Part shown: positions 39,374 through 42,476 of the stretch, one piece after another
Layout: each line of letters opens with the position of its first letter
Numbering within the stretch: the first letter of the stretch is position 1
Source: Acidobacteriota bacterium
GTDB lineage: Bacteria > Acidobacteriota > Holophagae > Thermotomaculales > Thermotomaculaceae
DNA: 64,000 nucleotides
Assembly (NCBI GenBank): GCA_013152385.1
Contig: JAADGL010000027.1
Span: forward strand, 1-64,000
Direction: 5' to 3'
The notes under the pieces: generated by a model
Databases searched by the model: none
The model's input: the letters and a program-made list of their open reading frames with translations, nothing else
Told to the model about the DNA's origin: nothing
Translations under genes and position numbers: made by a program

Positions 39374-40180
39374 TTAAACAAATTCCAGTTGATGAGCCGG
39401 ATGAATCAGCCCCAGCTCTGTTGCATACCGGTAGAAAAGCATGAGGCTTTCTTTTTCGCGGGAACCGAATGTATAGTGAAGATTCTCTGTGAGATATTGT
39501 CGTGTGAGTTGCTGCCGCCGGGGGGTAAATCCGTTTGCGCGGCTGAAACTGTCCGCAATTTTAATGCGGCTTTCCATGTCATTCATCACAGCTTCCCGAA
39601 ACAGGGCGGGGGGGAGGACACTGTCATTTTTCAGTCCCCACATTGCGAAAACAAAGGGCAGGCCGGTGAAATCCTTCCATTGGGCGGCAAGGTCCATAAC
39701 AGCCAGGGAAGGGTGTTCCAGTGAAAAACAAAAGGCGCGGTCTCCGATGGCCAGCACAGCATCTTTTTCTTTGATTCCTTCCTCTATTTTGCCATGGAAA
39801 GGTGAAAATGAATACTCGCTTTTTCCCTGTTTTATCATCAGAATCTGAATCAGGGTATTGGACGTTCTGGAAGCCGGGTCCAGGCCGACGGAGCGGATTT
39901 CCGGCAGTGGTTTTTCTGAAAAAAGAAGAACACTTTCCACCGGCCCCTCGGAAGCGATACATACGCCGTCCACTGCGGAAATATCCGGGATTTCAGGGAG
40001 GGAAATAGATGAAACCAGCCCGGCATCCACAATTCCTGCGGCAAGTTTCCGGCAGGATTCGGCAGGAAGGTCATTGCAGGTTGAAAACAGGTTCCCACTG
40101 TTTTGCAGTCCCCGGGTGAGGGGAAGTGCGTTGAGATAGGGGATCAGTGAAATAAGCGGTTTATTCCGGTTTGAAGTCAA
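39374..40180 (-). CDS. mqnA: Chorismate dehydratase of the futalosine menaquinone pathway
   Basis: A 268-residue MqnA-like protein. Family-typical features are IPYLNALPLTRGL, the GIVDAGLVSS segment, GPVESVLLFSEKPLPEI, the SRTSNTLIQIL turn, AIGDRAF, and the DLAAQWKDFTGLPFVFAMW block. It converts chorismate to 3-enolpyruvylbenzoate, indicating menaquinone synthesis by the futalosine route. TTG at 40180 is the likely start, overlapping the preceding kinase gene by 20 bases; an AAAGGAG sits 12 bases upstream, slightly long. Other mqn genes are not in the window. Confidence 0.9.
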   Translation of the reverse strand: MTSNRNKPLISLIPYLNALPLTRGLQNSGNLFSTCNDLPAESCRKLAAGIVDAGLVSSISLPEIPDISAVDGVCIASEGPVESVLLFSEKPLPEIRSVGLDPASRTSNTLIQILMIKQGKSEYSFSPFHGKIEEGIKEKDAVLAIGDRAFCFSLEHPSLAVMDLAAQWKDFTGLPFVFAMWGLKNDSVLPPALFREAVMNDMESRIKIADSFSRANGFTPRRQQLTRQYLTENLHYTFGSREKESLMLFYRYATELGLIHPAHQLEFV

Positions 40181-42323
40181 TACAGAAACGGGCTCCTTTG
40201 TCCCCGGGGTTCATCAATCGAATGTTTCCGCCGAGAGCCCGCATAATCAATGTGGATAAGTGAAGGCTCAGCCGCAGCCCCCTTGTATGGTGATCCAACC
40301 CTTCCATGAGCTTGAACCGGTCAAAAATCATTTCAGCGGATTCAAGCGCTACCCCCGGCCCTTCATCCTGAATACAGAGACGTACAAATTGGCTGTCCCG
40401 GCCGGTGGAAATTGAGATTGAGCCGCCTTCCGGGGAATGTTGAATAGCATTTTCCAGTACGTATCCGATTACCTGTTCCGCCCGTGCCGGATCACTTAAA
40501 ATCCGGAAGGTACCGGTATTATTGAGGACGGTAATTCCGGATTCCTGCAGCGCTTTTTCATATTTTGTCAATACCTGTTCGACAATTCCATTGAGTTCGG
40601 TAACCTGCATTTCCAGATAAGCCCGCCCATTTTCAAAATTTACGGTATCAATGACCCGCTCAATGATTTTGGACAAATGGCGGCTTTCTTTGTAAATAAC
40701 ATCCAGAAAATGCTGCTTGTCCGATTCTTCCGTAACAATGCCTTCCAGCATACTCTGTGAATAGCTGATGATGGAGGTCAGGGGAGTGCGGAGTTCGTGG
40801 CTCATAAGGCCCATGAAATCATCTTTCAGTTTATCCAGTGTTTCCAGCTTTTTAACAGATTCTTCCAGGCGGGCGTTGGTGGTCTGCAATTCCGAGGTCC
40901 GCTGTGCCACCATTTCTTCCAGATGTTCCGCATAGCGGTTAATTTCCTGCATTTTGGTTTTCAGTGTCTGGTTCAGGCCGGATACCGTTCGGTACAAACG
41001 GGCATTTTCCAGTGCGATGGCGATGTTATTTGAAATCAGGTGATAGTAAGTTAAAGTGTCTTTCGTAAATGATTCGGCCATGTCCGAATAAAGATTGATA
41101 ATGCCCTGTGATTTGCCTTTGACCACAAGGGGAATGCACACAACGGATTTAATATGCGGCAATTCCCCGCGGACTTTCTCAAAAATAGATGGGTTTTTGT
41201 GCCGGTTGAGAAGGACAATCCGGTTCCGCTGGATAATTGCCCGGGCGGCGGAAAGCCCGCTTTCAAGAATAATATGATTCAACGGGTCGTCTTTCAGGTT
41301 GGTGTGCTCCGCTTCTTTCAGTTCCTGGTCTGGGCCCATGTCAAGAAGGATGGATACCCCGAAGTTGCCGTGACGCTGAAGCGCTTCGGAAGCAAGCTGA
41401 ATAACACGGTCGGTTTCCAGTTCGGAAACCAGTGTGGAACTGATCTGGTTGGCAGTAATCAGTTCCCGGATTCTAAGCTCCAGTGATTTTTTCAGTTCTT
41501 CCAGTTCATCGTACAAATCCGCCATCTGCAGGTTACTGGTTACCGCCTGCCGGAGAAGTGTTGTATTTTCATCCTCGTCTTTATCCCGCCCTGATGAATT
41601 TAACTGGATATTTACGGTGGCATTTTCCCTTGCAATTTCATTGTCTTCCGTTTCTTCTTCCTCTCTTTGCATCTTCAGCGGCTGTTGGAGGGAAAGAAGG
41701 AAAGAATCCAGTAAATCGTTTCCCACCGGCAGTTTGTGCTTCGCAATAATTTCTTTCATGGACATATCGCAGATTTTAAGGAAAGCGTCGGCGACACCTT
41801 CGCCCCGGATGGCAACGGTGGGGAAGAAGGGAAGCTTTTTTCCGGGATTCAGGGTGTCGTTGAGTTTGCGGATGGGGGTCAGCGGAGACAAATCCCGCTT
41901 ATTATATTGAAAAACCATAGGCAGGTTTTCCGGGCTCAGATTGTAGTAATTCAGATTATTCACCAGGTCTTTCATGCTTTCCACATTGTCCTGCAACAGA
42001 TTTTCCTGGCTGTCCACCACAAAAACCACTCCGTCAACCCCTGCCAGAACCGCTTTTCGTGTGGCATTGTACTTGACCTGACCCGGTACCGTGTATATTT
42101 TCAGTTTGATTTTGAAATTATTCAAGGTGGAGATAGTGATGGGCAGAAAATCAAAAAACAGTGTCCGGTCTTCATCGGTTTTAACGGAGAAAAGTTTTGT
42201 TGTACTGGCCGGGTCCATAACGGAATGCAGATATTGCAGTGAAGTGGTTTTTCCGCAGAGCCCCATCCCGTAATAAACGATTTTAACCAGTATTTCTCTC
42301 TTGGAAAAGCTGATCTGTACCAT
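40161..42323 (-). CDS. MglA-type small GTPase fused to a GAF domain and a histidine kinase
   Basis: A 720-residue single open frame. Residues 1-195 form an MglA-family GTPase: P-loop GMGLCGKTT (19-27), TVPGQVKYNATRK (78-90), VVFVVDSQ and the base-recognition NKRD (141-144). An acidic linker, a coiled coil and a GAF domain (about 310-450) follow. A second coiled coil leads to HisKA with H509 in LMSHELRTPLTSI, and an HATPase domain (NAIQHSP, DEGPGV). The ATP-lid glycine box is altered (TRGLRLSL instead of GxGLGL), so kinase activity may be reduced. No transmembrane segment is seen. It overlaps mqnA by 20 bases. MglA proteins normally control polarity and motility with an MglB partner, which is not adjacent. 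Confidence 0.93.
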   Translation of the reverse strand: MVQISFSKREILVKIVYYGMGLCGKTTSLQYLHSVMDPASTTKLFSVKTDEDRTLFFDFLPITISTLNNFKIKLKIYTVPGQVKYNATRKAVLAGVDGVVFVVDSQENLLQDNVESMKDLVNNLNYYNLSPENLPMVFQYNKRDLSPLTPIRKLNDTLNPGKKLPFFPTVAIRGEGVADAFLKICDMSMKEIIAKHKLPVGNDLLDSFLLSLQQPLKMQREEEETEDNEIARENATVNIQLNSSGRDKDEDENTTLLRQAVTSNLQMADLYDELEELKKSLELRIRELITANQISSTLVSELETDRVIQLASEALQRHGNFGVSILLDMGPDQELKEAEHTNLKDDPLNHIILESGLSAARAIIQRNRIVLLNRHKNPSIFEKVRGELPHIKSVVCIPLVVKGKSQGIINLYSDMAESFTKDTLTYYHLISNNIAIALENARLYRTVSGLNQTLKTKMQEINRYAEHLEEMVAQRTSELQTTNARLEESVKKLETLDKLKDDFMGLMSHELRTPLTSIISYSQSMLEGIVTEESDKQHFLDVIYKESRHLSKIIERVIDTVNFENGRAYLEMQVTELNGIVEQVLTKYEKALQESGITVLNNTGTFRILSDPARAEQVIGYVLENAIQHSPEGGSISISTGRDSQFVRLCIQDEGPGVALESAEMIFDRFKLMEGLDHHTRGLRLSLHLSTLIMRALGGNIRLMNPGDKGARFCIDFKPE

Positions 42324-42408
42324 AAAATCATCGTATAGAATTCAAACGCTTTTGTCAATTCCCGCCCTTCGTGGGGAAAGGGAAGGGAAGTAAAAGTGTG
42401 GGAAACGT

Positions 42409-42476
42409 GAGCAAAACGGGGACTGGCAATGTCTGCGGTACCGAGCAAAACGGGGACTGGCAATGTCTGCGGTACC
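42409..42476. repeat. Perfect 34-base tandem duplication
   Basis: The unit starting GAGCAAAACGGGGACTGG occurs at 42409-42442 and again at 42443-42476 with no mismatch. The unit length is not a multiple of three, and no coding frame crosses it. Confidence 0.97.

Follow-up and report, generated by a model that had tools for sequence, protein, structure and literature searches.

Results

A small GTPase and a sensor kinase in one chain

The window, by which we mean the whole 64,000-nucleotide stretch of Acidobacteriota DNA analyzed here, encodes an MglA-type GTPase joined in one chain to a GAF domain and a histidine kinase. This MglA-kinase fusion is old and widespread in Acidobacteriota, and its layout has been kept by descent. 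The GTPase is the constant part of these proteins, which suggests that their core job is to act as a switch and not to transfer phosphate. The gene comprises the following parts:

40161..42323, minus strand: whole gene, MglA-type GTPase / helix / GAF / signaling helix / DHp (HisKA) / HATPase_c, 720 aa
41736..42323, minus strand: MglA-type GTPase domain, residues 1-196, with Arg53 and Gln82 (phmmer against MglA structures; predicted fold similar to M. xanthus MglA, TM-score 0.90 by target)
42243..42269, minus strand: P-loop GMGLCGKTT, residues 19-27
41571..41657, minus strand: linker, residues 223-251, of low model confidence and differing among relatives
41424..41570, minus strand: helix 252-300 with motif LLxxAVxxNMxxAxLYxEL
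41007..41414, minus strand: GAF domain, residues 304-439 (Pfam)
40827..41006, minus strand: signaling helix / coiled coil, residues 440-499, part of a continuous helix 421-526 in the model
40629..40826, minus strand: DHp (HisKA) domain, residues 500-565, with H-box SHELRTP (Pfam)
40797..40799, minus strand: codon of the presumed phospho-acceptor His509
40170..40493, minus strand: HATPase_c (CA) domain, residues 611-718, with intact N and G1 boxes (Pfam)
40272..40274, minus strand: Arg684, where the G2 box normally has its second Gly (GLRL, not GLGL), specific to the window's genus

A preliminary description of this DNA had proposed a one-frame fusion of GTPase, GAF domain and kinase, and this is borne out by a single 720-aa open reading frame that begins with ATG and has no internal stops. 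Residues 3-186 match the MglA structures of T. thermophilus (E 1e-48) and M. xanthus (E 3e-47) in a phmmer search of the PDB, and GAF_2 (304-439, 6e-10), HisKA (500-565, 1.5e-13) and HATPase_c (611-718, 1e-13) are matched above Pfam cut-offs. The P-loop, VPGQ, NKRD and H-box motifs named in that description are all present: G19-T27, T78-V-P-G-Q82 (a TxxG motif with Gln) and N141-K-R-D144 (NKxD) in the GTPase, and H509 within SHELRTP in the kinase, together with an intact N box (N625) and G1 box (D653, G655, G657). The altered ATPase lid (TRGLRLSL) that it pointed out is equally real. The G2 box reads GLRL against the usual GLGL, with N625 and D653-x-G-x-G unchanged, and Arg684 is common to the three gene-bearing genomes of the window's genus, while the sister genus and nearly all other members have Gly. 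An assembly join or frameshift between the GTPase and kinase parts is ruled out, since independent assemblies carry the same frame.

An AlphaFold2 model built from 25 homologues (mean pLDDT 78.6, pTM 0.42) divides the chain into the GTPase (1-196), a linker modeled with low confidence (223-251), an extended helix (252-300), the GAF domain (304-439) and, last, the CA domain. A single unbroken helix spanning residues 421-526 enters DHp, whose second helix covers 533-564. Foldseek searches match the C-terminal part to HK853 and YycG, and the GTPase part to M. xanthus MglA with a TM-score by target of 0.90; at a pTM of 0.42, the model leaves the placement of the GTPase against the remaining chain undefined. 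The motif LLxxAVxxNMxxAxLYxEL, in the helix before the GAF or PAS domain, recurs in most GAF-type and PAS-type kinase fusions and was not found in any kinase-less MglA protein examined. Helix 252-300 would be the most promising candidate for a coupling element between the GTPase and the sensor.

A constant GTPase and a variable kinase

Thirteen GTPase positions (G19, G24, K25, T26, T49, R53, T78, P80, G81, Q82, N141, K142 and D144) are invariant in the alignment of all 25 fusions. They include the N, K and D of NKxD, which reads NKQD in one clade, and the catalytic residues of the GTPase, among them Q82 and R53, the intrinsic Arg finger; no known catalytic residue of the family is missing from the window's protein. 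An intrinsic Arg finger adjacent to the G2 Thr defines Group 1 MglA proteins (PMC4316618).

The kinase is another matter. The acceptor His is present in 14 of the 25 fusions; the other 11 have Q, A, D, N, T, E or S in its place, or a deletion. Even so, 10 of these 11 His-less members retain N625, D653 and the G1 residues, with a G2 box of GLGL or GISL. In one relative (G016) the kinase motifs are entirely gone and the GTPase is retained. Among GAF-type fusions, the presence of the His changes state at least four times on the GTPase tree. Such counts are blind to gain versus loss, and we read the changes as losses, the more economical view where a DHp domain is concerned.

We also compared the window with its two congeners for selection. 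Estimates of dN/dS are about 0.04-0.05 in the GTPase, 0.02-0.07 in GAF, 0.15 in CA and, where estimable, 0.04 in DHp, all rough figures because dS is near saturation. All domains are under purifying selection, which is strong for the GTPase, GAF and DHp. Identity among species of the genus is 90-96% for DHp and 66-77% for CA, the least conserved and most relaxed folded part.

The GTPase does vary at P-loop position 21, the equivalent of Ras Gly12. This residue is Ala in 22 of 26 GAF-type fusions (loci L072, L074-L085 and L089 are listed for it), and Gly in the window's genus, in all PAS-type fusions and in canonical MglA. In T. thermophilus MglA, a Gly-to-Val change at the Ras-Gly12 position cuts kcat sevenfold, Ala not having been tested there (PMC3000849). 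By analogy with that drop, many of the Ala21 switches may hydrolyze GTP slowly.

Distribution and descent

Orthologues with 81-85% identity and the identical frame occur in named public Acidobacteriota records. Among 60 relatives, two genomes of the window's genus (G001, G002), three of the sister genus (G004, G005, G007) and two of another family in the class (G010, G012) have full-length orthologues. The sister genus also has a fragment (G006), and the other family has the copy with a wrecked kinase (G016). Neither the fusion nor mqnA was found in the 180 contigs of G003, also of the window's genus, which may reflect an assembly gap or joint loss.

The preliminary description had proposed counting the taxa that share this architecture, and a sample of 396 Acidobacteriota genomes places fusions in several families. 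Among the matches listed, which make phylum-wide counts lower bounds, at least families f8, f18, f35, f45 and f76 have open frames, some 720-790 aa long, with matches that span GTPase and GAF, and a GTPase-kinase fusion with an intact H-box is also present in family f5 (G152). Fusions of another type, MglA-PAS-kinase, are common in family f2, where many have an added C-terminal receiver domain, and are present in f3 too. One form seen in many f2 genomes, some of them single-contig assemblies, is an MglA-PAS-degenerate kinase-receiver protein (L091:1501-3885).

A phylogeny of 56 GTPase domains groups all MglA domains joined to kinases in a single clade (ultrafast bootstrap 100, SH-aLRT 95), although the inner branching order is unsure because the domain is short and some branches are long. 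One clade across many families rules out a recent chance fusion in a single genome. Beyond Acidobacteriota, a set of 299 genomes from the phylum of a Thiothrix locus yielded two stand-alone MglA proteins and no fusion. The fusion was also unseen in 150 genomes from the phylum of an Elusimicrobiota locus and 100 from that of a Leptospiraceae locus, searches that carry little weight as they returned no positive whatever. A plasmid search returned one stand-alone MglA, in Deinococcus.

Linkage to mqnA and the upstream region

Two features flank the fusion gene:

39374..40180, minus strand: mqnA, with a TTG start at 40180, 20 nt inside the fusion gene (Pfam VitK2_biosynth, 6e-42)
42330..42358 (region 42323-42358), minus strand: promoter-like TTGACA-17-TACGAT, conserved in two genera, with 6 nt between the end of the -10 box and the ATG

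The overlap with mqnA had been taken as a transcriptional link to quinone synthesis. As gene linkage within close relatives this holds: the 20-nt overlap is shared by the window, L009 and L011 (the window's genus and one sister-genus genome), the two genes nearly overlap in other sister-genus genomes, the TTG-containing stretch is kept in L010 and L012, and the promoter is conserved in both genera. As a general association it fails. In two f3 genomes with a fusion 36% identical, mqnA lies two genes off with an SNF-type transporter intervening, and in the other lineages tested it is on other contigs or far away, with no PF02621 match at all in G080. A general mqnA linkage is therefore rejected outside f1 and these two f3 genomes, and the link is supported as gene linkage only.

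Upstream, a TTGACA-17/18-TAnnAT element stands 6 nt from the ATG in both the window's genus and the sister genus, and this spacing makes it likely that the fusion has its own promoter and an mRNA that is leaderless or nearly so. Apart from mqnA, the window neighbors of the fusion are unrelated genes; an RND efflux operon on the same strand lies upstream in the sister genus and two congeners, a position it does not have in the window. We also observe, at 42409-42476 upstream of the fusion, a 34-bp unit, GAGCAAAACGGGGACTGGCAATGTCTGCGGTACC, that is perfectly repeated twice, head to tail. The rest of the genome has five more related copies, against none for a reversed control.

Other MglA proteins of the host genome

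The premise that MglA normally stands alone does not hold in Acidobacteriota, where kinase fusions are widespread. The host genome encodes five MglA-type GTPases, and four of them are fused to further sequence. The canonical host MglA has 193 aa and is preceded by the gene for the roadblock protein MglB. The preliminary description had suggested looking for MglB/roadblock homologues; this is the sole roadblock gene detected in the genome (C66), and none was found beside the fusion. An adjacent MglB partner is therefore rejected, and the fusion lacks a coupled MglB within four genes, a feature of the MglA family. Elsewhere in the host genome, an MglA-PAS protein of 413 aa without a kinase (L002:1498-2739) is encoded beside a TadA/PilT-like secretion ATPase and a prepilin-like gene, and two further proteins (L003:1420-2556 and L005:901-2049) consist of MglA, a linker and a C-terminal part without a Pfam match, with similar proteins widespread in the phylum.

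Neighbor genes in other lineages

No receiver gene adjoins the fusion in the window's family. In f8, which keeps the His, the fusion comes after two stand-alone receivers and, in G080, before a GAF-kinase. In f76, which also keeps it, a kinase precedes the fusion (with a receiver domain in G329), and a receiver follows in G376. In three genomes of the His-less f18, the next gene, overlapping or almost touching, encodes a TPR + DUF4388 protein after the MglA-GAF-kinase:

L118:10879-12432: TPR + DUF4388 protein, f18
L141:5991-7544: TPR + DUF4388 protein, f18
L142:2674-4197: TPR + DUF4388 protein, f18

MglA-GTP of M. xanthus has a TPR protein, SgmX, as an effector (PMC7519303), and by analogy the f18 protein is a candidate effector. 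These neighbors fit a kinase-type output in some lineages and a GTPase output in others, from few independent lineages. Receivers stand beside His-keeping lineages only, a suggestive pattern for which the independent lineages are too few to provide a test.

Discussion

We give roughly an even chance to the fusion being a single-chain cytosolic G-protein/sensor-kinase switch, with the GTPase as its conserved core and the GAF-DHp-CA dimer as the most likely input. The long helices and the DHp domain would form a parallel dimer that pairs two GTPases. The GAF signal and the ATP or phosphorylation state of DHp-CA, relayed through helix 252-300, would set the GTP/GDP state, and the GTP-bound form would then bind downstream partners, like MglA elsewhere. 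We infer that signaling runs from GAF-DHp-CA to the GTPase, with the latter as output, because the GTPase is never lost. In the window's lineage, the kinase probably still autophosphorylates at His509, since its H, N and G1 boxes are intact, and Arg684 perhaps changes the behavior of the ATP lid. In His-less lineages, the module would work only as an ATP-binding pseudokinase. More tentatively, it is possible that phylum-wide these proteins are G-protein sensor kinases in which the kinase module, active or degenerate, serves as an in-cis exchange- or GAP-like regulator of the GTPase, having turned controller several times.

The preliminary description suggested that GTP state governs phosphotransfer, or the reverse, and this may be so. 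Repeated loss of the acceptor His beside an invariant GTPase speaks against phosphotransfer as the constant function. The switch reading is further supported by the ATP-site residues kept in 10 of 11 His-less members, by the single clade (100/95) with its at least four His changes and its kinase-fusion-specific helix motif, by the TPR-DUF4388 neighbor in f18 together with the SgmX precedent and the set of parts found in conservons, and by strong purifying selection on the GTPase, GAF and DHp in the window's genus. Counting against it, the receiver and kinase neighbors in the His-keeping f8 and f76 point to a kinase output there, and the window's lineage keeps its His, so that phosphotransfer may still matter there; this lineage may use both outputs.

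The main rival makes the GTPase the input: GTP/GDP binding, set in trans by MglB or an exchange factor, would gate autophosphorylation of His509, a response regulator encoded elsewhere would carry the output, and the His-less proteins would be later derivatives. The intact His509, N and G1 boxes of the window, the 90-96% identity of DHp across the genus, the receiver genes adjoining the fusion in two His-keeping lineages and the existence of MglB in the genome all favor such a GTP-gated kinase. We nevertheless consider it rather unlikely, given the repeated His loss under an invariant GTPase, the lack of a receiver gene beside the fusion in the window's family, the GLRL form of the G2 box in the window's genus, and a CA domain that is the least conserved folded part there (66-77%).

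ATP-site residues would be needless for a pure scaffold, and their retention in 10 of 11 His-less members, like the strong purifying selection on GAF and DHp, makes it improbable that the fusion serves mainly co-localization or dimerization, with the GAF-kinase part as a targeting or oligomerization scaffold and little signal passing between GTPase and kinase. The kinase-less C-terminal parts of the other host MglA fusions and the relative G016, with its GTPase kept and its kinase motifs gone, lean toward that idea. Very improbable, in our judgment, is a menaquinone or redox sensor whose GAF domain senses quinone or redox state and which regulates mqnA or respiration, an idea prompted by the common transcription unit. 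What recommends it is the 20-nt mqnA overlap in the genus and one sister-genus genome, the near-overlap in others of the sister genus, and mqnA two genes off in the two genomes with a 36%-identical fusion; however, linkage by itself is no proof of function, and mqnA is elsewhere in all other lineages tested, including G080 with its lack of a PF02621 match.

The way in which bacteria couple small GTPases to two-component kinases is an open question, and in conservons and M. xanthus the parts are separate. Across the phylum, fusions that keep the acceptor His and fusions that lack it form a natural series, in effect an experiment already set up to show whether the output lies in the GTPase or in phosphotransfer. 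We found no description of an MglA-GAF-kinase fusion in a literature search confined to open-licence papers, and its novelty is provisional. The main survey, which defined the family, listed 488 MglA-clade sequences and analyzed the 449 of at most 240 aa, setting longer ones aside (PMC4316618), a restriction that may explain why the fusion seems undescribed.

The fusion shares with the MglA family (M. xanthus, T. thermophilus; Group 1 of Wuichet and Sogaard-Andersen) its fold, TxxG switch II, R53 Arg finger, Gln82 and NKxD. It differs in carrying a sensor kinase in-chain, in forming its own clade, in lacking an adjacent MglB and, for most GAF-type members, in having Ala21. At 720 aa against 150-240 aa for classical MglA, it is better called an MglA-domain protein than a classical MglA. 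From cytosolic HisKA kinases such as HK853 and WalK/YycG, whose DHp-CA fold and motifs it has, it is set apart by the N-terminal Ras-like GTPase and the altered G2 box. DivL is a pseudokinase that keeps ATP-site residues without the His, and the His-less fusions resemble it in both respects.

The closest analogue is the conservon of Actinobacteria, which comprises the CvnA kinase, CvnB roadblock protein, CvnC, CvnD GTPase and CvnF GAF protein, and in which the GAF protein stimulates the kinase (PMC13343842). Both systems combine a histidine kinase, an MglA-type GTPase and a GAF module. In the conservon these are separate proteins from one operon with its own MglB-type protein, whereas the fusion holds all three in one chain with no adjacent roadblock gene, and no conservon-type four-gene operon (kinase, roadblock, CvnC, GTPase) is found at its locus. 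The conservon signal path has been called poorly understood (PMC13343842); a conserved covalent fusion fixes the stoichiometry of the parts and makes their coupling testable in a single purified protein.
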